From Rhodospirillales bacterium (GTDB taxonomy: Bacteria; Pseudomonadota; Alphaproteobacteria; BOG-932; Roseiterribacteraceae): DNA of 34,476 nt. The DNA lies in assembly GCA_003165335.1 (NCBI GenBank), contig PLTD01000139.1:1-34476 (forward strand). Direction: 5' to 3'. Shown here piece after piece: positions 4,276 to 18,734 of the stretch. A program made the translations under genes and the position numbers. Numbering within the stretch: the first letter of the stretch is position 1; each line of letters begins with the position of its first letter. The notes under the pieces are model-generated. The model did not search any database. It was not told the DNA's origin and saw nothing but the letters and a program-made list of their open reading frames with translations.

Positions 4276-4763
4276 ATGATTTCGCCGCAATATGTCCGGG
4301 CGCTCAGCGGTTATAACGCCGAGATGAACTGTCGGGTCTATGGTGCCGCGGGGCGACTGACCGACGATGATCGAAAATTGGATCGCGGGGCGTTTTTCGG
4401 CTCGATTCACGGCACGCTCAACCATCTGCTGTGGGCCGACCAAACATGGATGTCGCGTCTCGCCGGGTGGTAAAAGCTGGACTTTCCTGGCAGGCAGAGC
4501 GGCACTTTGTACGACGATTTTGCTGAAATGCAGGCAAAACGGGCAAAAATCGATGCCGGAATTTGCGATTGGGCAGCCGGTTTGACCGACGATTGGTTTG
4601 CCGGAGAGTTGTATTGGTTCAGTGGGATAGCCCAGTGCAACATGCCCGCACCCCGGACGATCATCGCGGTCAGGCTCACGCCATGCTGACCGCAGCAGGC
4701 GAGGATACCGGCGACACCGACATCTTTATTATGCCCTGGGCTGCCTGGAACGAATCCGCGTAA
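4276..4763 (+). pseudogene. Broken DinB-family (damage-inducible-like) protein gene
   Basis: The first 65 codons read as the N-terminus of a DinB-family protein, with the helix segment HGTLNHLLWADQTWMSRLAGW. They are cut by an in-frame TAA at 4471-4473. The same frame reopens at once (KLDFPGRQSGTLYDDF...), running through WFSG to about 4650. The family C-terminus (HRGQAHAMLTAAGEDTGDTD) then appears in another frame and ends at 4763. In intact relatives about 15 residues (the ...THFFNHQTHHRGQ stretch) lie between these parts, so a deletion of roughly 40 bases that shifts the frame is inferred. One stop plus one frame-shifting deletion make a functional product unlikely. A GTG at 4270 is an alternative start. 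Confidence 0.85.
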
Positions 4764-4826
4764 GCCAGGTGTTGCGCACGGCGACAAATTGATGGCCAAA
4801 TACCCTCGATGCAGGGGGTCAGAACG

Positions 4827-5300
4827 ATGCGCAAAAGATTCGTTTCGATCGGATTGGCTGCGGTGGTTTATGCGGTCATCTCGGGCGGGCAGGCACTGGC
4901 AGCCTGCGATTGCCCTGACCTTTCACTGGACGAGCGCATAGCCGGTTCGGCTGTGATTTTCTCAGGTAAGCCGTTGATGTTCGCTCAGATTCCGGCAGGC
5001 TCGTCGCCCTTCCATTCTGAACAGTCGATCGAAGCGCCGGGCGGTGTGCAATACGACGTTATCACCTTGTTTCAGGTCGATACGGTCTGGAAAGGTGAAC
5101 CGACCCGTCGGATCAAAGTGCGTCATGACCGCAGCGCCTGCAGCGTTGATTTCAAACCGAATGCTCCGGTGATCGTCTTCGCTGAAGCTGACTCGACCGG
5201 TGTATTGTGGACCAGACTTTGCAGTGGCAACTCGGCATCCGGCGACGCCGGGTATGAAGATCTGAAGCAGGGGCTGACCAATCGCCTTCGATACAACTAA
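4827..5300 (+). CDS. Small exported protein, Cys-rich, NTR/TIMP-like pattern
   Basis: A 157-aa protein with a clear Sec signal peptide (MRKRFVSIGL..., cleavage after QALA) leaving a mature N-terminus ACDCPD. The pattern of an N-terminal CxC, then a VIFSGKP strand, VWKG, a middle Cys (SACSVDF) and a late Cys (LCSGN) resembles bacterial secreted proteins with a TIMP/netrin-like fold. This is a pattern judgement, not a homology search. The ATG at 4827 is preferred over 4809 because AGGGGG at about 4812-4817 is then correctly spaced and the signal peptide begins immediately. It stands alone between the DinB remnant and gor. Function unknown. Confidence 0.7.
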   Translation: MRKRFVSIGLAAVVYAVISGGQALAACDCPDLSLDERIAGSAVIFSGKPLMFAQIPAGSSPFHSEQSIEAPGGVQYDVITLFQVDTVWKGEPTRRIKVRHDRSACSVDFKPNAPVIVFAEADSTGVLWTRLCSGNSASGDAGYEDLKQGLTNRLRYN

Positions 5301-5467
5301 TGGCGATATGAGATTTTCACCGGCTAACCATTCCGATCCAAGGCTTATGGCGGCGAATATCGACGCCCGTGTCGTCTTCTGCCGCGATATCGAAGTCGTG
5401 CGTTAGCGAAATTTCTGCGCGATGGTAATAGTGCTGCGTCGCACAGCAATTCAGCCGGTAGAACCCT

Positions 5468-6832
5468 ATGTCCGATTATGATTTCGACCTGTTCGTCATT
5501 GGCGGCGGCTCCGGCGGTGTGCGCGCCAGCCGTATAGCGGCGGGACACGGAGCACGGGTTGGAGTCGCCGAAGAACGCTATATGGGCGGCACATGCGTTA
5601 ATGTCGGGTGCATTCCGAAAAAGCTGCTCTCTTATTCCTCCGGCTTCGGCCACGGGTTCGAGGATGCGGCCGGCTATGGCTGGGAATGCCGGGAAAATGC
5701 ATTCACCTGGGCGGATTTGATCCGCAACAAGGATGTCGAGATTTCCCGGCTAAACGGCATCTATCGCCGCATTATGGAGCAGGCCGGGGTCAAGGTTTAC
5801 GACGCCCGCGCCACCCTGGCCGATGGACACACGGTTTCTCTGTCGACGGGGGAGCGATTCACGGCCGAGCGCATTCTCATTGCCACCGGCGGCTGGCCCA
5901 AAGTGCCGGATATTTCCGGCAAGGAGCTCGCAATCACCTCAAATGAGGCCTTTCACCTTCCCGACCTGCCAAAGCGGATACTTGTCGTGGGCGGCGGCTA
6001 TATCGCAGTTGAGTTCGCCGGAATTTTCGCCGGACTCGGTTCGGAAGTGACACTGCTCCACCGCGGTATGGCGATTCTGACGGCGTTCGACCATGAGTTG
6101 GGCGAAAATCTGATGCATGAAATGCGCAGGCAAGGCATCAAGACTCATCTTCATTCTGTCATCAGACGTTTGGAAAAGGTCGAGGGCGCGATCAAGGCGA
6201 CTTGCAATGAGGATCAGTCCTTTGACGTCGATTGCGTGCTGTATGCCACCGGCCGCGCGCCCGCCACCGGCGGCATCGGTTTGGAGGCGTTGGGCGTCGT
6301 GCTCAGCCCTAATGGCGCAATAATCGTCGACGAAGAGGATCGGACCAATATTCCGCATATTTATGCGATCGGCGATGTCACCAACGAACTAAACCTGACG
6401 CCGGTCGCAACGGCCAAAGGCCAGGCGCTGGCCGAAAGGCTCTATGCGGGGGGCGCACGCCATATCAGTCTCGAAAACGTCGCCACTGCGATATTCTCTT
6501 CTCCGCCGATCGCGACGGTTGGCCTTTCGGAAGAGCAGGCAGTCGAGCGCGGAGTTATATTCGACGTCTATAAGCAAAATTTCAGGCCGTTGAAGCATCG
6601 ACTATCGATGCGCGAACAGCAGACCTTCATGAAACTGATCGTCGAGCGATCAACCGACCGAGTGTTGGGTTGCCACGTCATCGGGGACGACGCGGCGGAA
6701 ATGATGCAAGGCTTTGCGGTGGCGATCACGGCAGGCGCGACCAAGACCATGTTCGACCGTACAATCGGCATACATCCGACTTCGGCAGAAGAATTTCTGA
6801 CGATGAGGACTGCGGTGCGGGTTCAGCCCTAG
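5468..6832 (+). CDS. gor: Glutathione-disulfide reductase
   Basis: Reduces oxidised glutathione with NADPH in the cytoplasm, keeping the thiol pool reduced. It is a group I pyridine nucleotide-disulfide oxidoreductase. The FAD motif is IGGGSGGVRA (11-20), the redox pair is GGTCVNVGCIPKK (Cys43 and Cys48), the NADPH-binding fold starts VVGGGYIAVEF, and YAIGDVT binds FAD. The C-terminal HPTSAEEF holds the His-Glu pair of the dimer-completed active site. The length of 454 aa is normal. It is followed within 3 bases by a strong two-way terminator. The monothiol glutaredoxin gene near 21.4 kb acts in a related, glutathione-using system. Confidence 0.95.
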   Translation: MSDYDFDLFVIGGGSGGVRASRIAAGHGARVGVAEERYMGGTCVNVGCIPKKLLSYSSGFGHGFEDAAGYGWECRENAFTWADLIRNKDVEISRLNGIYRRIMEQAGVKVYDARATLADGHTVSLSTGERFTAERILIATGGWPKVPDISGKELAITSNEAFHLPDLPKRILVVGGGYIAVEFAGIFAGLGSEVTLLHRGMAILTAFDHELGENLMHEMRRQGIKTHLHSVIRRLEKVEGAIKATCNEDQSFDVDCVLYATGRAPATGGIGLEALGVVLSPNGAIIVDEEDRTNIPHIYAIGDVTNELNLTPVATAKGQALAERLYAGGARHISLENVATAIFSSPPIATVGLSEEQAVERGVIFDVYKQNFRPLKHRLSMREQQTFMKLIVERSTDRVLGCHVIGDDAAEMMQGFAVAITAGATKTMFDRTIGIHPTSAEEFLTMRTAVRVQP

Positions 6833-6834
6833 GC

Positions 6835-6870
6835 AAAAAAAAGGCCCGGCTTCCGTCCGGGCCTTTTTTT
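6835..6870. terminator. Bidirectional intrinsic terminator between gor and the facing gene
   Basis: An A8 run, then GGCCCGG (6843-6849), a 7-base loop, CCGGGCC (6857-6863) and a T7 run. The A and T tracts on both sides make it work for gor on the plus strand and for the convergent small exported-protein gene on the minus strand. Confidence 0.95.
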
Positions 6871-6885
6871 CAGCTTTGTCAGCGT

Positions 6886-7218
6886 TTAGCCGACTTTGGC
6901 TGCTTTGACATGCCGGTGGGTGTTGGTGCTGACCTTTTTGGCGGTAGTGCCCTTTGATTCAGCCGCCGAGCTCTTGGCCTTGGCAGCGCCGTCCGTTTTG
7001 GCTGTCGTATCTGCTTTGGCGACGGTGCCAGTCTTCACGGATGTATCGGCTTTGATTCCGCCGGTGACGGCCGGAGCGGGTGACTTGGTCATGGGCGTGA
7101 CTGCGGCCGGCGGCGTAACGGTAGTCGTCGATCCGGTTGTGGCGCCGACCTGAGCGAAAGCCGGCGTGGCGAGCGCGAGGGCGGCGACGGCTAGCAGGGG
7201 GCGGAAAGCGAAAGACAT
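6886..7218 (-). CDS. Exported Ala/Thr/Lys-rich low-complexity protein
   Basis: A 110-aa protein with a signal peptide (MSFAFRPLLAVAALALATPAFA, cleaved before QVG). The rest is low-complexity Ala, Thr, Lys, Val and Ser, with repeated K-A/T-D-T-like units (KADTSVKTGTVAKADTTAK). It has no recognisable domain and ends HRHVKAAKVG. The ATG at 7218 is chosen over an upstream in-frame start at 7254 because GGAG lies just upstream on the minus strand (+ strand ctcc near 7226-7229) and the signal peptide starts cleanly. It faces gor and shares its terminator. Sphingomonad genomes often carry such basic periplasmic proteins; the function is unknown. Confidence 0.7.
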   Translation of the reverse strand: MSFAFRPLLAVAALALATPAFAQVGATTGSTTTVTPPAAVTPMTKSPAPAVTGGIKADTSVKTGTVAKADTTAKTDGAAKAKSSAAESKGTTAKKVSTNTHRHVKAAKVG

Positions 7219-8839: not shown

Positions 8840-9601
8840 TTACTTGGCCGCCGGCGGTTGCGTCGGTGCGTCCGTTGGGGCGGGCGCGGCTGTCGTCGGT
8901 GGCGCGGCGATCGGTGCTGCTGGTTCGGCGACGGGAGCTGGAATATCCGAGGCAGGTGTGGACGAGGGCGCCTTATCGGGTGTGTCGCTGTCGCTTCCGA
9001 CCTGCAGCAAATCCATGCCGGGTGGTACCTCAAACAGGGCTGCGTCCTGAGGACCTCTGATAATATTTTTCAATTCCATACGTGCCGGCGCGTTATCGGC
9101 ATCGATCGACGTCTTGCCGACGACCCGTACGATAATGCCGTCGTCTGTCGCCCAAACAGTTGCGTTGACAGTCAGCTCCGGTCCGCCGTCGATCTTGATG
9201 GCATATTTGGTGGTCAACAGGCCGTCGATTGTCTCAAGCCCTTGCGATTCGGCTTCGGCTCCATAAAACGAATCGACGTCGGTCCCTGGTGCACCAGTTT
9301 TTCCAGCAGCTTCGGCTGCTGCGATCCGCAGCGCGACAGCGAGATGACGGGTCGGCTTTAGATCGTAGACCTTGCCTTGATCACGCCGGATAATAGTGAT
9401 CGAAGGAAGGCCGGCTGCGCTCTTGGCTTCGCGGCGTTCTTTCGGGCCATCGACATAGATGTGGCCTGCGATATCCTTTCCCTTGGCGGTGAAAATGACA
9501 TCGGCGCTGTAAGACGCCTTTGGAAGAGGAAGTTTGTCCGCCAAGGCGGGTGTCGCGACCAGATAAATCGCCGCCAGGGAGGCAGAAACGAACCGCTGCA
9601 T
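8840..9601 (-). CDS. Exported protein with LolA/DUF4412-like pattern and Pro/Ala-rich tail
   Basis: A 253-aa protein with a signal peptide (MQRFVSASLAAIYLVATPALA). The region from about 28 to 190 has the rhythm of a beta-rich periplasmic domain (YSADVIFTAKGKDIAGHIYV, then RREAKSA, ITIIRRDQGKVYDLKP), reminiscent of DUF4412 or LolA-like proteins; I cannot confirm the family. The last 55 residues are almost only Ala, Pro, Thr and Asp, a likely disordered tail. It converges on the DAHP synthase gene with 24 bases between them and no clear terminator. The 5' side holds a hairpin at 9621-9651. Confidence 0.65.
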   Translation of the reverse strand: MQRFVSASLAAIYLVATPALADKLPLPKASYSADVIFTAKGKDIAGHIYVDGPKERREAKSAAGLPSITIIRRDQGKVYDLKPTRHLAVALRIAAAEAAGKTGAPGTDVDSFYGAEAESQGLETIDGLLTTKYAIKIDGGPELTVNATVWATDDGIIVRVVGKTSIDADNAPARMELKNIIRGPQDAALFEVPPGMDLLQVGSDSDTPDKAPSSTPASDIPAPVAEPAAPIAAPPTTAAPAPTDAPTQPPAAK

Positions 9602-9957
9602 TATGACTCCAGTCGCTGATGCGGCGAAACCTTACAATACAATGTCGCCGCGTCCAACGTCGTTTGCGCGGGCGATGTCACGAATAGTAAAGATAAAATT
9701 CGTTCACATAACGGCGTCGAATATCGCGACCGGCTTCTTTAGCGGCTTGGCGTCCGGCCTTTGTCGGGCTATTGGCTTTGCGCTTATGAAATCTCGTCCG
9801 ATAGATTTCTACGGTTTGAACCCTTCGTCCAGCATTTGTGCTACATCGTTCTTCTTTGTCCTATGGGACAACTCGTAAACTGAAATGATTTGCAGTTCCG
9901 CATGGTTGATAATTTGCTTTTGAATATGTTCATGCACGTCGGTCTCGGCGGAAGCTC
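9602..9957. other. Divergent promoter region between the exported-protein gene and gltX
   Basis: About 356 bases with no gene I accept. A hairpin with 7-bp arms (GCGGCGA 9621-9627, TCGCCGC 9645-9651) lies in the probable 5' leader of the minus-strand gene. A perfect 6-bp-arm inverted repeat, TTGTCC-TATG-GGACAA, lies at 9856-9871, about 90 bases before gltX; it could be an operator or part of the gltX promoter. An open frame at 9603-9878 exists but has no supporting ribosome site or family resemblance. Confidence 0.4.
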
Positions 9958-11298
9958 ATGGGCGTAACAGTTCGTTTTGCGCCTAGCCCATCGGGCTATC
10001 TGCATGTCGGAAACATGCGTCTGGCTATCATCAACTGGCTGTTCGCGCGCCGCGAGAGCGGCAAGTTTTGGCTGCGCATGGATGATACCGATCCTGAACG
10101 GTCGAGCCAGGTTTACGCCGACGCGATTCAGCATGACCTAGCCTGGATGGACCTCGATTGGGATCGCTATGAAAGGCAGTCCGAGCGTCTCAGCGCCTAT
10201 GAGGTCGCCGCAGAGAAGCTTAAAGCGTCCGGTCGCCTCTATCCGGCCTATGAAACGCCGGAAGAACTCGGCGCCAAGCGTAAGGCTCAGTTGGCGCGGG
10301 GCGTTCCTCCGCTTTACGACCGCGCTGCGCTTGCCTTGACGATAGAACAGCGGCGCTCGCTTGAGGCTTCCGGTCGCAAGCCCCACTGGCGGTTTAAGCT
10401 GGATAGCGGAAAGGTCGAATGGGACGATCTGATCCATGGGCCGATCGTCTTTGAGGCCGGCCAGTTGGGAGACCCGGTGTTAATCCGCGAAGACGGTCGT
10501 CCGCTTTATGGATTTTCCTCGGTCGTCGACGATATAGCGTTCGGTATCACTCATATCGTGCGGGGTGACGACCACATCACCAATACAGCCGGGCAGATTC
10601 AGCTGTTTCAAGCTTTGGGCGGCGCGTTGCCGGTCTTCGCCCATCTTCCGCTTCTGATCGATTCGGAGGGCACAAAACTATCCAAGCGCCTGGGCACCCT
10701 CTCGATTGCGGCTTTGAGGGATGAGGGAATCGAGCCTCTGACGTTGGCTGTTTATCTCTCGCGGATGGGTACATCGGACCCGATTGAACCGCTGGACGAT
10801 CTGGTCACTCTGATCCATGAGTTTGAGTTCCGCCGTTTCTCGGTTTCATCGCCACGTTTCGACTTGGCGGAATTGCGCCGCCTTAATGCGCGGATGCTGC
10901 ATGCCATGCGATTTGAACAGGTGGAGGCTCGCCTTTCTTCGTTAGGGTTGAGCGGTGTTACGCCTGGGTTTTGGGAGGCTGTGCGTGCCAACCTGGATAG
11001 GCTGAACGACGCAGAATTATGGTGGAAAGTCGTAAATGGCCCTATCAAGCCTTCAATCGAGAACGAAGCCTTGCTTGCTGAGGCAGCGGGTCTTTTGCCC
11101 GGTGGAGAATGGGACACAGGCGTATGGTCTGCCTGGACTTCGGCGGTATCGGTCGCGACCGGCCTTAAGGGCAAGGCACTTTATATGCCGCTCAGAAAGG
11201 CCCTGACGGGTCAGGATCACGGACCGGACATGAAAACGCTGCTGCCTCTGATCGGTCGCGATCGAATTTGCAAACGCCTGGCCGGCGAGGTGGCATGA
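9958..11298 (+). CDS. gltX: Glutamate--tRNA ligase
   Basis: Charges tRNA with glutamate. It is a class Ic synthetase: the HIGH-type signature is PSGYLHVGN (residues 9-17) and the KMSKS-type signature is KLSKR (about residue 240). RMDDTDPERS and HIVRGDDHITNT are core catalytic-domain segments. At 446 aa it is of the shorter alphaproteobacterial kind; many alphaproteobacteria carry two such enzymes, one charging tRNA-Gln for later amidation. Which type this is cannot be settled from the sequence alone. The last codons overlap the start of cysS (ATGA), so the two synthetases are translationally coupled. Confidence 0.95.
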   Translation: MGVTVRFAPSPSGYLHVGNMRLAIINWLFARRESGKFWLRMDDTDPERSSQVYADAIQHDLAWMDLDWDRYERQSERLSAYEVAAEKLKASGRLYPAYETPEELGAKRKAQLARGVPPLYDRAALALTIEQRRSLEASGRKPHWRFKLDSGKVEWDDLIHGPIVFEAGQLGDPVLIREDGRPLYGFSSVVDDIAFGITHIVRGDDHITNTAGQIQLFQALGGALPVFAHLPLLIDSEGTKLSKRLGTLSIAALRDEGIEPLTLAVYLSRMGTSDPIEPLDDLVTLIHEFEFRRFSVSSPRFDLAELRRLNARMLHAMRFEQVEARLSSLGLSGVTPGFWEAVRANLDRLNDAELWWKVVNGPIKPSIENEALLAEAAGLLPGGEWDTGVWSAWTSAVSVATGLKGKALYMPLRKALTGQDHGPDMKTLLPLIGRDRICKRLAGEVA

Positions 11299-13792: not shown

Positions 13793-13848
13793 GGTTTTCC
13801 TGGCGACCGACCGAACTATCGGGACAATTCGAAAACCACCTGAAGGTG
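13793..13848 (+). promoter_or_regulatory. rpsD leader with hairpins, one covering the ribosome binding site
   Basis: Arms GGTTTTC (13793-13799) and GAAAACC (13831-13837) can pair across 31 bases. Next to them CACC-TGAA-GGTG (13837-13848) folds over the AAGG that serves as rpsD ribosome binding site. Ribosomal protein S4 is known to repress its own translation by binding its leader in other bacteria; whether this leader does so is inference. Confidence 0.4.
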
Positions 13849-13854
13849 CACATT

Positions 13855-14469
13855 GTGAGCAAGCGTTTAGAGTCCAAGCATAAGATCGACCGCCGCCTAG
13901 GCGTTAATCTTTGGGGTCAGGCAAAGAGCCCGATCAATCGCCGCGAGTATGGTCCCGGCCAGCACGGGCAGCGCCGCAAAAAGCCGTCGGATTACGGTAA
14001 TCAGTTGATGGCCAAGCAGAAGCTGAAGGGCTATTACGGTAACATCGGCGAGCGTCAGTTCCGCCGTTACTACGACGAAGCTTCGCGCCGTAAGGGCGAC
14101 ACGTCCGAAAACATGATCGAGTTGCTGGAGCGCCGCCTCGATACGGTTATCTATCGTATGAAATTCGTGCCGACTGTTTTCGCGGCCCGTCAGTTCGTCA
14201 GCCACGGCCATGTAAAGGTCAACGGTCATCGTGTGACGATCCCTTCATTCTCAGTCAAGGATGGCGACATCATCGAACTACGCGACAAGGTCAAGGAATT
14301 GGCTGTTGTTCTGATCGCGGTCGATTCCGGCGAGCGTGACGTACCTGACTATATCGATGTCGATCACAAAGGCATGAAGGGGACGTTCGTCCGCGGTCCC
14401 AAGCTGCCTGACGTTCCCTATCCGGTTCAGATGGAACCACACCTGGTCGTCGAATTTTATTCCCGCTGA
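13855..14469 (+). CDS. rpsD: 30S ribosomal protein S4
   Basis: A primary rRNA-binding protein that nucleates assembly of the 30S body. The 204-aa product starts [15 protein letters not shown]. It contains [10 protein letters not shown] and an S4 RNA-binding domain ([25 protein letters not shown], about residues 95-155), and ends HLVVEFYSR. The GTG at 13855 is chosen because AAGG at 13843-13846 is correctly spaced and the conserved N-terminus starts there; the GTG at 13846 would overlap the ribosome site. It is monocistronic behind a consensus promoter. Its own terminator, just downstream, has been split by a 3.1-kb transposon. Confidence 0.97.
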
Positions 14470-14491
14470 TCGGGAGACTATCGAGATTGCG

Positions 14492-14514
14492 AAAGGCCGG
14501 GGAAACCCCCAGCC
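14492..14514 (+). terminator. Left half of the original rpsD terminator, rebuilt as a hairpin by the transposon end
   Basis: AAAGGCCGGGG is the original upstream arm. The transposon supplies CCAGCC, so GGC-C-GGGG can still pair with CCCC-A-GCC around a small loop with one C/A mismatch. No T run follows (CCTACAGC comes next), so it should pause or stabilise RNA but terminate poorly. Confidence 0.6.
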
Positions 14515-14532
14515 CCTACAGCAATCTGGTGA
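14500..14532 (+). repeat. Left target duplication and left terminal inverted repeat
   Basis: Target duplication GGGAAACCC at 14500-14508, then the terminal repeat at 14509-14532. Against the right end there is one mismatch, at repeat position 21 (G here, T there). Confidence 0.9.
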
Positions 14533-14575
14533 TAGTTAAAGGGGTGTTCGAAGGCGAGCAGCCATTTAACCTTTC

Positions 14576-14595
14576 GGCCCGGCAAATGCCGGGCC
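14576..14595. terminator. Perfect GC hairpin inside the transposon
   Basis: GGCCCGGC-AAAT-GCCGGGCC, a perfect 8-bp stem with a 4-base loop. It lies downstream of the antitoxin on the minus strand and close to the left transposon end. No T run follows in either direction, so it may terminate weakly or block read-through into the transposon from rpsD. Confidence 0.45.
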
Positions 14596-14692
14596 AAGCA
14601 AGGAATTAAGGTGTTATTGGGTTAAGTTTCGTTCTCGCCACTGCCTGTTGCAGCTGGCGGCGCACATGCGTCGTCTAGTCGGTCCTAGATTA

Positions 14693-14725
14693 GCTGAATC
14701 TGGATTAAGTTAATCCAGATTCAGC
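14693..14725. repeat. 33-bp perfect palindrome between left end and antitoxin
   Basis: Arms of 16 bp (14693-14708 and 14710-14725) around a single central G, starting GCTGAATC and ending GATTCAGC. An outer pair GTCTAG (14673-14678) and CTAGAC (14736-14741) frames it. It is AT-richer than the surroundings and has no T tract. It may be a terminator of the toxin-antitoxin operon, a protein-binding site or a transposition site; the sequence does not decide. Confidence 0.8.
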
Positions 14726-14874
14726 CGCCGATTCCCTAGACAGGTGACGAGAAGGCCTCTCTGCAAAGCTGCGACGGCACATGCTTCAGTTGATCAACAT
14801 ACATCATTCACGATTGACGTCCTGGCCCACCGTCAAGGTGGTGGCCGGCGCACTTCGCTCATGAAACAAACTTA

Positions 14875-15204
14875 TCACGCGTGGATATCAACAGAGAAGT
14901 GACAGCGGTCATCTGTTTCCAATTTAGCCGTAACCGTCAACTTAACGTTATATCCGAGCTTGATTAGCCAAGCCGTTAGGCGTTCAACGCTAACGGCGCC
15001 CATGCGGCCACGCAGAATCTTGGACAGGCTTGGCTGGTCTGTTCCGATAAGGGTTGCGGCTTCGGTTTGCGTCATGCCTCGCTGTTCGATCGCCAGGGAA
15101 ATCTGCGTAATTAGGCTACTCTTAACCTCAAGTTCCTCGGCCTCCTCGCTGGAAAAGCCGATATCACGGAAGACACTTTTGCCGCCTACTACAAAATCAG
15201 CCAT
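14875..15204 (-). CDS. XRE-family antitoxin (HigA-like)
   Basis: A 109-aa protein with a Cro/C1-type helix-turn-helix at about residues 33-75 (LAIEQRGMTQTEAATLIGTDQPSLSKILRGR), the pattern of HigA-type antitoxins that bind their own promoter. It would neutralise the toxin encoded just upstream on the same strand; the two frames overlap by 8 bases (15197-15204), so they are translationally coupled with the toxin first, as in higBA. The pair is cargo inside the transposon and could select against its loss. The C-terminal 30 residues (KLTVTAKLETDDRCHFSVD) are not typical and may form the toxin-binding part. Confidence 0.85.
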   Translation of the reverse strand: MADFVVGGKSVFRDIGFSSEEAEELEVKSSLITQISLAIEQRGMTQTEAATLIGTDQPSLSKILRGRMGAVSVERLTAWLIKLGYNVKLTVTAKLETDDRCHFSVDIHA

Positions 15205-15610
15205 TTTTCCGCTCCGCTTCTCTCTTTTTATCCAGTTCTGCAGCCCGCTTTAGACGAAACCGAATGAGGTCTATGTCCTTTTGGGGCGTCGCTATCCCGC
15301 TCGTGGCCTTCTTCTTGAAGGCATGCAACACATATACGCCGGTCTTCAACTTCACCGTGTAGACAACGCGGTATGTGTCCGTGTCATCATCTTCTAGAAG
15401 CTTCATCGTCCCGGGCACTTCCGCGGGCTTGGCGTTCGAAGGCGTTTCCCCGTTCTGCACCTGACGAAGCTGGAAACCGAATGCTCGCTTCAGATCGAGG
15501 TCAAATTTCGAAATATCCCTCTTGCTGCTGCCCATCCAAACGATGACCTGCGTCACTCGATCTGGTAGATATGACTTTTTTACCATAATGTCAAGGTTCC
15601 GGTTGCACAC
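15197..15610 (-). CDS. RelE/HigB-type toxin (phage Gp49-like)
   Basis: Probable ribosome-dependent mRNA interferase. The family pattern is clear: VIVWMGSSKRDI near the start, QVQNGETPSNAKPA, DTYRVVYTVKLKTGVYVLHAFKKKATSGIATP, then DIDLIRFRLKRA. The length is 137 aa from GTG at 15610, or 129 aa from ATG at 15586; both starts have weak ribosome sites, and the second gives the more usual N-terminus. A 12-bp hairpin immediately upstream (15614-15640) could be the operator of the pair or the terminator of the transposase gene. Activity as a toxin is inferred from family. Confidence 0.85.
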   Translation of the reverse strand: MCNRNLDIMVKKSYLPDRVTQVIVWMGSSKRDISKFDLDLKRAFGFQLRQVQNGETPSNAKPAEVPGTMKLLEDDDTDTYRVVYTVKLKTGVYVLHAFKKKATSGIATPQKDIDLIRFRLKRAAELDKKREAERKNG

Positions 15611-15613
15611 TGA

Positions 15614-15640
15614 GGCGAGGGGCAGGCTGCCAGCCTCGCC
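15614..15640. promoter_or_regulatory. Long hairpin between transposase stop and toxin start
   Basis: GGCGAGG-GGCAG-G-CTGCC-AG-CCTCGCC: twelve pairs with a 2-base bulge. It ends four bases from the possible GTG start of the toxin on the minus strand. It has no T run. Either it ends transposase transcription or it is the binding site through which the antitoxin controls the pair. Confidence 0.5.
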
Positions 15641-15676
15641 GTTTCATCAATCAACATTGCCAAGATACCATCCGAA

Positions 15677-17536
15677 TCACGAAGGTTTCAGATACTCTCG
15701 AACATCAAAATAGACGATGTCCTCGTAGCGGACCTTGCCCTTAGTCAGACCTAAACGTTGGGCTGGTGTCGGTTTTTTGCTCTTCGGAGGGCCAATGAAG
15801 TTATTCCAGACCCTGAATATCTCGAGCACCTTAACCAGGTAGATCGGGTTGTACGGCGCGTTGATATGCCAGGTCAGTGGCTGCCGATGCGACATTATCC
15901 CCCGCTCAGCTATAACGAGCCGGCGCCGAATCTGATTGAATACCGTGTCTATCGGCCACAGCGAGGCGCTGATGAGCATGCGGGCGACCGTCTCATCATC
16001 GTAGTCATCCAGGTCGGTTACGAACCTGACGCGCTTGTCAGGTTCCGCGGGGTTAGGGAAGATCTGGTCTATCCAGAGATCCTGAAGCTTCTTGTGCTCC
16101 ACCGGACTTTCCGCACGCAAATCCCGAACTTTCTCGGTCATGATCGCCACTTTGGCGCCGTAGTCCGACAGCCCTGGAAAGCTCAGCTTCGCAGCCTCAA
16201 ATCTCTTACGAGCGTCCCTGAGCAGCCGGCGCCTGACATCGACCTTCATGTCTTTCAATATGCGAACCGAGAGGATATCGGCTGTCCGATCGCGGACGCG
16301 ATCCGTAAACGCGCCCAGGCAAGCCATCATCAGCGCCGGGTCGTCGTCCATATGAAAGCTCACCTTCTTGGCGCCGCGGAGCAGATGTCGCAGAAGATGG
16401 AAGTGCCCATGGCCTGTGTATTCCGAATGAACGAGCACACCCTTTGCCGGCAGCTGCTCGTTGTCGGCAACCTCGGTATTTCCGTCCAGATCCGAGCGTT
16501 CTGGCGCCGGTGGCGTCTCGCTATCTGGAGCACTCCCCTGGGGCAACTCAACCTGGTCCTTTTTAAGCTTCGCGACCTGGCGCGTGTAGTCGTCCCGCGA
16601 CCAAAGCCTGGCGTACTCCTGGAGGTGAGCGGCCCGGGTCCGGTCCCCGCAGGCCTCACGCGCAGCCTCGAGCTCCTCCAAGTTGATTGATGGATCGTAG
16701 GCGGGCGTGAGCCCGAAGACGTAGCCACTCTTCAATTCGGCCGTTGCGATACCTTGGATCAGAATATGCAGCCGGATCTTTCGATTGGGCCAGTTGACCA
16801 GATAGACCTGCCGATCGGTGCAAAGCCGGAGGTGTTCGAACTCCTTGTATGGTAGCCGGGCTTCACGGGATGCGGCGAAAAGCTGACATTGCCGGTAGAG
16901 GAAATCGATCTTTCCATAGAAAGCTGAAGGTCCGAGGTCGAGAGTTTCCATCAACCTGCTGGGAACGCCCTTGTTCACCAGATGCTTGAAGACATCGACG
17001 TTGCGGAAGCTTTTGCGCTGCCTGAGCGTCGGGCCGCCGACGCTGACGGTCTTACGGCACGCTCGGCACTGCCATCGCATTGAACCGACGTCAGTGGTGC
17101 CGAACCGGCGGAACCTGGCTTCGATTTCGGCGAGGCCGCCGGAAAATTGATGATTGACGCAAGCTGCATTGGGACATTGGACAGGTGACGGCCCGCCAAG
17201 ATATTTGCGTTGCCGCTCAAATTCCTCAATGATCGCCTTATTGCTCTTGATTCGGCCCCTTCCGCCGCAACGGCGGCAGTTGAGCGTGGCGGTGCCTGCG
17301 CCGTCCCCCGTGACCTGATAGCCGTCTGAGCTCAAATTCCCCTTTCCAGGGGGAGGACGGATCATCGAGGGCTCTACGCCGAAGTTTTCGCATCCAGGCG
17401 TTCTACATGCATTTACCTGAAGCCCGGCAAATCGAGGGGCGATATTGCGTGGAGTATTTGCCGGAAATTTCTTCGGCAAATGGCTGGCGGCCGAAGGCGA
17501 TGTATCCAAGTTAGTGGTTTGTTCCGCTTCGCTCAC
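15677..17536 (-). CDS. Zinc-ribbon DDE-type transposase
   Basis: A 619-aa protein, the largest in the element, expected to cut and join the transposon ends. The N-terminal quarter has four Cys clusters: C44/C49, C87/C90 (CRRCG), C121/C126/H129 (CPNAACVNH) and C157/C160 (CRACRKTVSVGG). The last two look like the InsA-type zinc ribbon of IS1 relatives, followed by a helix-turn-helix-like region (FKHLVNKGVPSRLMETLDLG). The catalytic core is inferred: D241 (CTDRQ), D397-D399 (HMDDDP) and a Glu at 543 or 572. The C-terminus (NPIYLVKVLEIFRVWNNF, then KKPTPAQRLGL) is typical of DDE transposase ends. It starts with GTG at 17536. Intact; the family name is not certain. Confidence 0.8.
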   Translation of the reverse strand: MSEAEQTTNLDTSPSAASHLPKKFPANTPRNIAPRFAGLQVNACRTPGCENFGVEPSMIRPPPGKGNLSSDGYQVTGDGAGTATLNCRRCGGRGRIKSNKAIIEEFERQRKYLGGPSPVQCPNAACVNHQFSGGLAEIEARFRRFGTTDVGSMRWQCRACRKTVSVGGPTLRQRKSFRNVDVFKHLVNKGVPSRLMETLDLGPSAFYGKIDFLYRQCQLFAASREARLPYKEFEHLRLCTDRQVYLVNWPNRKIRLHILIQGIATAELKSGYVFGLTPAYDPSINLEELEAAREACGDRTRAAHLQEYARLWSRDDYTRQVAKLKKDQVELPQGSAPDSETPPAPERSDLDGNTEVADNEQLPAKGVLVHSEYTGHGHFHLLRHLLRGAKKVSFHMDDDPALMMACLGAFTDRVRDRTADILSVRILKDMKVDVRRRLLRDARKRFEAAKLSFPGLSDYGAKVAIMTEKVRDLRAESPVEHKKLQDLWIDQIFPNPAEPDKRVRFVTDLDDYDDETVARMLISASLWPIDTVFNQIRRRLVIAERGIMSHRQPLTWHINAPYNPIYLVKVLEIFRVWNNFIGPPKSKKPTPAQRLGLTKGKVRYEDIVYFDVREYLKPS

Positions 17537-17598
17537 AAACCCTACCGGAGAAGATGCCTGCCTAAGTCCGTAATCTTATAGATCGGACCTAGCAGGTG

Positions 17599-17631
17599 TC
17601 AACAGATTGCTGTAGGGGCTGGGGGAAACCC
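17599..17631 (-). repeat. Right terminal inverted repeat and right target duplication
   Basis: Inverted repeat at 17599-17622, with its outermost base at 17622, then the target duplication GGGAAACCC at 17623-17631. Confidence 0.9.
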
Positions 17632-17640
17632 GGCCTTTTT
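17618..17640 (+). terminator. Regenerated terminator at the right transposon junction
   Basis: GGCTGGG, whose GGCTGG is the transposon end, pairs with CCCGGCC from the original rpsD terminator around GGAAA, with one U-G wobble, followed by T5. It is an intact intrinsic terminator on the plus strand, three bases before the stop of the facing glycosyltransferase gene. Before insertion this site ended both convergent genes. Confidence 0.75.
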
Positions 17641-17642
17641 GC

Positions 17643-18734
17643 TTATGGTCCATTGCTCGCGCCCAATGCTGCATGGATTGTGGCGCGACCGTGTTCGAGT
17701 TCTTTAGGTACCGACATCGATAGGGCGAGTTTACGGCCGGCCGCGCCTATTCTTTGCGCCTCGGCGTCATGCTGGATCAGCCAAGTCACCTTTTCGACAA
17801 GGTCTGACATATCAGTGGCCACCGGGACGAAATTCTCCCAGGCCACGAGCCTATCATAATACCACTGACGGTATCCGTAGCGTGAGGCCACCTTCAGCAC
17901 CGGACACCCGGTTAGAAGCTTTTGAAACAGTCCCGGCCAGGAATTGGTATTACCGTCGATGTCGAGTTGGTAGCGGTATCGGCTGAAAAGGGTTTCCGGC
18001 ACGAAATCCCGGACGAGGCCTGATACCCTTATAGCCGCCGCGTCGGCTTCGTTCACTTGCACGATCCCCGCCAGACCGACATCGAATATGGTCGGGTAGG
18101 CAGTTGCGATACGGCAAAGCAGCACGCGATCCATCTTCTGCCATGTGTCGCAATCGATCTCGCCGCCTGTCGTGGAACCACGCCAAAATGCGATTTTGCG
18201 TCGCTGTTCCCAAGCGACATCCTGCTCGAGATAGTGCCGGGCCGTCCTCTGGTAGGCACGTTCGGCAAAGAAAACAGGGTCGGGTATCAACAACCGATCG
18301 GATCGATGGTCAGAAAATGCGAGACCAGGAACGACGCCATAGTCGTCTGTGTTCAAAGCGATAGAGCCGAGGGGGCCTCCGCGGCAATTGACGATGAGTT
18401 GAAGAAGTGCAATCAGCCGGCCGGATGCGAAACTCAACCGTTCGCCGCCCAGATGCGGGTTCAACTCCAGAATGCAATTGTCCTGGCGGAATCTCAGGTG
18501 AATCACCGTATTGTGGTGCCGCTCTCCGACGCCCAAGGCAAATCGGAAATAGCCCATGCATGCATGGCGAGTATTAACCAGCGCGCTCGCGATCCCGTAT
18601 TGCCCGTGGCGCAGCGCCTCGGTCACGGCACGCCTGTAGGCCGATTCCGCGAGCCTGGGCGGCACAAAGCCCTGTTTTGCACTGGTTCTTACGTCTGGTG
18701 AGAAGCTTTCAATATTGGCTTCAGCTTGGGTCAT
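17643..18734 (-). CDS. Glycosyl transferase family 90 (CAP10/LPS-modifying-like)
   Basis: Probably transfers a sugar (often xylose or glucose in this family) to a cell-surface glycan. The 363-aa protein shows the family hallmarks: RRKIAFWRGSTTG at about 188-200, YRYQLDIDGNTNSWPG near 262-276, a core segment TGCPVLKV, then FVPVATDMSDLVEKVTWL. There is no signal peptide or membrane helix, so it is cytoplasmic or peripheral. Its ATG overlaps the stop of the upstream tannase gene (ATGA at 18731-18734), so the two are coupled. The 3' end abuts the old rpsD terminator. The acceptor is unknown. Confidence 0.8.
   Translation of the reverse strand: MTQAEANIESFSPDVRTSAKQGFVPPRLAESAYRRAVTEALRHGQYGIASALVNTRHACMGYFRFALGVGERHHNTVIHLRFRQDNCILELNPHLGGERLSFASGRLIALLQLIVNCRGGPLGSIALNTDDYGVVPGLAFSDHRSDRLLIPDPVFFAERAYQRTARHYLEQDVAWEQRRKIAFWRGSTTGGEIDCDTWQKMDRVLLCRIATAYPTIFDVGLAGIVQVNEADAAAIRVSGLVRDFVPETLFSRYRYQLDIDGNTNSWPGLFQKLLTGCPVLKVASRYGYRQWYYDRLVAWENFVPVATDMSDLVEKVTWLIQHDAEAQRIGAAGRKLALSMSVPKELEHGRATIHAALGASNGP

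Follow-up and report, generated by a model that had tools for sequence, protein, structure and literature searches.

The window analysed here, a stretch of 34,476 nucleotides from a Rhodospirillales bacterium (contig PLTD01000139.1), carries a transposon of 3,114 bp at positions 14509–17622, inserted in the loop of a transcription terminator. The element was located by a scan for terminal inverted repeats (TIRs) and target site duplications (TSDs). Its TIRs, the left one at 14509–14532 on the plus strand (CCAGCCCCTACAGCAATCTGGTGA) and the right one at 17599–17622 on the minus strand, match at 23 of 24 bases, and the 9-bp TSD GGGAAACCC flanks it at 14500–14508 and 17623–17631. Repeats and duplication are present as read in the original prediction, which was made from the window alone; the boundaries given there, 14492–17640, also take in the two halves of the terminator. 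The transposon is a single copy in its assembly (265 contigs, 95.57% complete).

The terminator belongs to the upstream open reading frame (ORF) at 13846–14469 on the plus strand, which we take, following the earlier reading, to be rpsD, the gene of 30S ribosomal protein S4; positions 13858–14469 used as query were matched in all six genomes searched. The 5' arm GGCCGGG (14495–14501) and the loop GAAA (14502–14505), followed by CCC up to 14508, lie on the plus strand to the left of the element, and the leftover 3' arm GGCC with its tract of five T (17632–17640, plus strand) to the right. When the flanks are joined without the element they give GGCCGGG-GAAA-CCCGGCC-TTTTT, with a folding energy of -23.3 kcal/mol. 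This GAAA-loop terminator with its T tract had been predicted for the empty site, and it was found uninterrupted directly 3' of rpsD in two genomes of the same genus, as GCGAAAGGCCGGGGAAACCCGGTCTTTTTGC in G002 (RpsD 98% identical) and as GCGAAAAGGTCGGGGAAACCCGGCTTTTTTG in G001 (RpsD 89% identical), with the TSD sequence occurring once in each. The window element has therefore truly entered a terminator loop. The downstream host ORF (17643–18734, minus strand, 363 aa) is convergent and, compared by eye, like the sequence after the terminator in G002.

Inside the element, three genes lie on the minus strand. The largest (15677–17536) encodes the transposase of 619 aa, with conserved, zinc ribbon-like cysteines and the residues D241, D397 and E544. 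The other two form a toxin-antitoxin pair: an antitoxin-like helix-turn-helix (HTH) protein of 109 aa (14875–15204; HTH_37, Pfam PF13744, E 1.2e-17), for which only weak matches were obtained in the anti-phage library, and a toxin-like Gp49 protein of 137 aa (15197–15610; Pfam PF05973, E 3.3e-15), presumably of the RelE/HigB type. The noncoding left part includes a perfect 16-bp inverted repeat (14693–14725) and a GC-rich hairpin (14578–14597), both lacking a T tract, and no Rfam match at gathering score was found in the window at 14300–17800. A promoter-like sequence, TTGACA-18-TAAGAT, lies ahead of the transposase gene on the minus strand (17573–17602), its -35 box overlapping the inner part of the right TIR; the scan found two promoter-like sites against 1.9 in shuffles, that is, no excess.

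Relatives of the window transposase were found in plasmids, two phage records, three genome contigs and whole genomes; a single scan of viral contigs found none, and an ad hoc pattern for the junctions had no hits. Element ends were called from TIR and TSD alone, blind to hairpins. Ends with a TSD were obtained in 30 of the 57 loci first scanned, and records from Bacillota, the dfrG ones picked for host variety with their flanks unseen beforehand, added ten distinct sites, giving 40 sites with exact TSDs in Pseudomonadota and Bacillota. Loci without defined ends were dropped (L012, L014, L016, L018, L058–L069, L147, L148, L149 and L151–L155, as well as L134, L141 and L144, which have TIRs and no TSD). 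Also dropped were loci with one end only (L018, L162, L170, L171), those with both ends and no exact TSD (L159, L169), and two repeats of sites already counted (L161, the same as L160, and L165, the same as L164). The duplications measured 9 bp at 32 of the 40 sites, 10 bp at seven and 8 bp at one.

A hairpin (score ≥17) was present at 32 of the 40 sites, and in 29 its centre was no more than 1 nt from that of the TSD. When the sites were shuffled, 2.7% had a hairpin and 0.65% a centred one, and among 8,711 random intergenic positions of the first 30 loci the corresponding numbers were 505 and 88 (about 1%). With the stricter definition, centred hairpins of score ≥20, the comparison was 28 of 40 sites against 35 of the 8,711 positions. 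Seventeen of the 20 transposase clusters formed at 60% identity contain a member at a hairpin site. A second natural empty site, that of L140, was found in G1380, where the ilvA terminator has exactly the sequence of the joined flanks. Setting aside G1399, the seven further genomes of that genus have a different sequence downstream of ilvA, with no match to the L140 flanks.

The stems have hardly any sequence in common. Among the first 30 sites, 26 were aligned on a hairpin; in these, stem positions 2–8 contain just 0.06–0.24 bit each, yet are paired in 22–25 of the 26 sites; outside the stem there is an A tract to the left and a T tract to the right. An earlier control for the pairing, with about 8 of 26 expected, was rejected as too lenient because the sites had been aligned on the best dyad and four of the 30 left out (L015, L017, L019 and L056, excluded from the stem alignment, junction folding, tract comparison and inward-hairpin counts alike). 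The fair control takes in all 40 sites. About the fixed TSD centre, 143 of the 280 cells at stem positions 2–8 were paired (51%), compared with 7,489 of 28,000 in random flank (27%); about the best dyad the numbers were 238 of 280 (85%) and, for random positions under the same selection, 15,159 of 28,000 (54%).

The targets also differ from the terminator-like hairpins nearby. Both tracts were present in 24 of the 31 hairpin targets of score ≥20, the comparison excluding lower scores, and in 28 of 61 other terminator-like hairpins (p = 0.004); the stem scores of the targets were higher as well. Both neighbours could be assigned, from heuristically called ORFs, at 27 sites, and at 15 of these the two ORFs converge on the site. 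Both tracts and the convergent neighbours fit bidirectional terminators.

One element was found at different sites. Base-identical dfrG elements of 3,276 bp occupy five distinct loops of terminators, in Staphylococcus aureus (L156), Listeria innocua (L158), Enterococcus raffinosus (L163), E. hirae (L164, the same site as L165 in E. faecium) and E. casseliflavus (L167), and a sixth loop, that of L166 in E. faecium, has a copy with 122 differences. An identical element without an exact TSD was found in L169. The terminators of L163, L164 and L167 are alike. The element adjoins a gene of an SOS response-associated peptidase in L164 and L167, to which L163 is similar in its terminator; this setting is a possible hot spot.

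What becomes of the split terminator seems to differ among members. In the window copy each junction has a hairpin again, formed with the tip of the TIR, as the original prediction had claimed. The right one, at 17614–17638 on the plus strand, is terminator-like, the TIR tip pairing with the old 3' arm by way of one G-T pair; the left one lies on the minus strand. They beat 98–99% of shuffled tips, 2% folding equally well at the right junction and 1% at the left. A simple terminator scan of 14300–17800 detected the right-junction site alone; shuffles averaged 3.3 sites, more than the real sequence, and therefore that scan alone is no evidence. The rebuilding does not extend to the family at large: when 26 hairpin-site elements were tested, four right and four left junctions beat 95% of shuffled tips. 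The stability of the hairpin often collapses at the junctions, for example in L050 from -31.7 to -9.3 kcal/mol.

Many relatives may instead replace the lost termination by terminator-like hairpins of their own, facing inwards inside the ends. In the outermost 220 nt such a hairpin was found on the left in 16 of 27 elements and on the right in 16; it is present at both ends in 12 elements, at one end at least in 20 and at neither in seven. By comparison, 12 of 540 internal stretches contain a terminator-like hairpin. Over 62 ends, 36 had inward and nine outward hairpins, counts which are not independent, the inward hairpins being common to several related members. These hairpins would stop transcription. 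A comparison by eye was also made of whether junction rebuilding serves as a substitute where inward terminators are lacking; no general pattern was found.

The window transposase had no match to a Pfam or NCBIfam family above its cut-off. In the 15 members compared, D241 and D397 are invariant, E544 is nearly so and the cysteines near the N-terminus are conserved, which suggests a DDE transposase. A profile search of solved structures gave zinc-finger proteins and the aspartate carbamoyltransferase regulatory chain, with no transposase among the best 60 of 129 matches. The NCBIfam model transpos_IS1 matches the zinc ribbon and HTH region of 13 of the 15 members at E ≤0.01, the window copy giving no match at 0.01. 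Six members scanned singly against NF033558 scored 17.4–41.6 bits, the cut-off being 100, and the matches fell within profile positions 7–109 of 199. In L057 the transposase (4449–7001) is fused to a DnaQ-like 3'-5' exonuclease domain, detected with Pfam in L057 alone; an N-terminal motif resembling it is seen in L055, L135, L136, L139, L142, L143, L145 and L150, some of which have a split gene. Distant homologues of about 500 aa occur in eight genomes of the genus g241 (L058–L065), with no detectable TIR and TSD; they may have been domesticated or may form a separate branch.

With the dfrG element counted as one, an addiction or anti-phage module is present in at least nine of the 31 elements whose ends are defined. 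Besides the toxin-antitoxin pair of the window, these include a type IIG restriction-modification (RM) system with a specificity subunit (L050), NotI-like (L051) and BsuBI/PstI-like (L052) RM systems, a methylase with a weakly matched nuclease (L053), Tmn (L133), Septu (L139), Gabija (L140) and a retron type IV-like reverse transcriptase (L142). From L050–L053 to L133, L139, L140 and L142, different RM and anti-phage modules sit between the same kind of ends. The remaining cargo identified includes a PEP-CTERM protein (L057), a histidine kinase with a LytTR regulator and an esterase-like protein (L138), a beta-lactamase-fold protein (L137) and dfrG. The scan against the anti-phage library covered the cargo of 11 elements, and that of L055, L131, L135, L143 and L157 was left out of all scans. 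In L132 an ORF inside the element (9413–10162) has a sub-threshold match to the integrase core (rve) and is perhaps a second, nested insertion sequence (IS).

We consider it likely that these elements, which occur in both Pseudomonadota and Bacillota, form one family of DDE-type transposons which selects the dyads of strong, nearly symmetric hairpins, mostly bidirectional intrinsic terminators. The sites, the TSDs, their centring, the lack of a stem consensus and the natural empty sites can be read directly from the sequences compared, and pairing without a shared sequence argues strongly for recognition of structure. The physical form of the target would probably be an extruded cruciform or a hairpin, favoured by the A and T tracts. 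In the proposed mechanism the transposase would act on the dyad of a self-complementary target with A and T tracts and cut across the loop with a stagger of about 9 bp, so that loop and inner stem would be duplicated. The insertion splits the host terminator; in many members the inward-facing hairpins inside the ends would take over the lost stop, and in the window member the TIR tips re-form junction hairpins. Landing in terminators would keep the element out of genes. On the most far-reaching version we lean to neither side: a DDE family of two phyla which reads the self-complementarity of DNA, strikes extruded bidirectional terminators, swaps in terminators of its own at its ends and, by means of such neutral sites available everywhere, carries anti-phage and addiction modules from one genome or plasmid to another.

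Several observations weigh against the selection of hairpin dyads as set out here. Eight of the 40 sites fall below the hairpin threshold (L015, L017, L019, L052 with a weak hairpin of score 15, L056, L160, L168 and L172), and three hairpins are off centre, by 1.5, 2.5 and 3.5 nt. The preference for intrinsic terminators which had been supposed from the window copy was borne out at most sites and by the natural empty sites, and failed at these eight; the preference is therefore strong and not absolute. Base-identical dfrG elements lie outside hairpins at L160 and L161 (one site), L168 and L172, and pairing is therefore not essential; a copy with one difference also lies at a non-hairpin site, L019. 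The window copy, L010 and L011 are among the seven elements with no inward hairpin at either end. Members related to one another are not independent, and the sample leans to intact copies, some of the loci without ends being distant or decayed homologues; the plasmid records taken were 22 of at least 121 matching. Several counted members, for example L055, L133 and L150, have a split transposase gene. Structure prediction of the window protein and two Azospirillum proteins gave a mean predicted local distance difference test score (pLDDT) of 33.6, and because the model is so poor the fold was assigned from the conserved residues only.

The main rival explanation, which we regard as possible and rather unlikely, is that the transposase senses a termination event, in the form of an RNA hairpin, a paused polymerase or an R-loop at the U tract, and not a DNA cruciform. 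This would account for the finding that 30 of the 31 hairpin targets of score ≥20 have at least four of six A to the left or T to the right at terminator distance, and for the many sites near the ends of genes (heuristic ORFs). However, the TSD is centred on the dyad and not on the U tract, tracts on both sides are commoner in the targets than in other terminator-like hairpins, and L052 is a weak hairpin without a T tract. It is improbable that restoring the interrupted terminator at the junctions is the general function for which the TIR tips evolved. Folding bears it out in the window copy, and the four of 26 junctions on each side that beat 95% of shuffled tips exceed the approximately 1.3 expected, but 22 of 26 on each side fail to do so and inward hairpins could serve termination in 20 of 27 elements.

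Near-random intergenic insertion, followed by the survival of harmless copies alone, such as those in terminators, would agree with the 25 of 30 sites which were intergenic in the heuristic ORF test. Harmlessness, however, does not explain why 29 of the 40 insertions lie so close to a dyad (≤1 nt), against 1% of intergenic positions, and this explanation appears very improbable. Hardly credible at all is the view that the flanking inverted repeats are part of the element, as longer TIRs, with no terminator as target. The outer arms are indeed mutually inverted around the element, but the whole hairpin is present in the empty sites of G001, G002 and G1380, and the arms differ among the base-identical dfrG elements; as ends of the element the flanking arms are refuted by the empty sites.

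The selection of hairpin dyads, if it holds, has some wider consequences. Target choice by pairing potential, with a loop-centred duplication and hardly any common sequence, would be unusual for a DDE-type transposase, and the family would offer a clean system for studying cruciforms or termination complexes as targets in living cells. The exchange of the host terminator for those of the element would be a testable route to harmlessness. The cargo hints that anti-phage systems may gain entry through terminator loops, a route that has drawn little notice. The dfrG branch carries a trimethoprim resistance gene in plasmids of Staphylococcus, Enterococcus and Listeria and in two phage records, and the loop rule helps to explain where it lands.

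The window transposon belongs to a little-described family of bacterial transposons, and the literature titles and beginnings of abstracts listed contain no account of this family inserting into terminator loops and duplicating the target. IS1 resembles it in the zinc ribbon and HTH region and in making a TSD of about 9 bp; the members differ in scoring below the NF033558 cut-off, and the transposase of the window family is about three times longer than the IS1 profile. In Staphylococcus and Enterococcus the 'insertion element protein' linked to dfrG is a homologue, 24–27% identical to three different queries along more than 90% of their length, and has the same target preference, the dfrG cargo being peculiar to that branch. 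According to a published report (PMC8638950) this protein is apparently always linked to dfrG, and the word terminator is absent from the main text of that paper.

Among elements with structured targets, ISPpu9 inserts at a fixed place in a hairpin-forming repetitive extragenic palindromic (REP) sequence (PMC8450116), and IS1397 and ISKpn1 appear as IS of REP palindromes in a title of the reference list of the same paper. Their targets are conserved repeat sequences, whereas no stem consensus was found here over 26 hairpin sites. Class C (IIC) group II introns prefer intrinsic terminators, thereby avoiding genes, and insert just after the terminator (PMC8919778). They are ribozyme retroelements, whereas the element described here is a DNA transposon with a DDE-like transposase and lies in the loop; no reverse transcriptase match was found among the three window proteins scanned. 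The closest precedent in behaviour is IS1272, which together with TnSha1 and TnSha2 (IS1182 family, Staphylococcus) finds its stem-loop targets through their structure rather than their sequence, several of these being transcription terminators (PMC5678879, PMC4923244). No model named IS1182 was among the matches listed for the window transposase. As with IS1272, the hairpin would be chosen by structure, the stems here being nearly without common sequence. IS1272, however, deletes or replaces the hairpin and makes no TSD, whereas in the present family the hairpin is retained, split at its loop, and 8–10 bp are duplicated.

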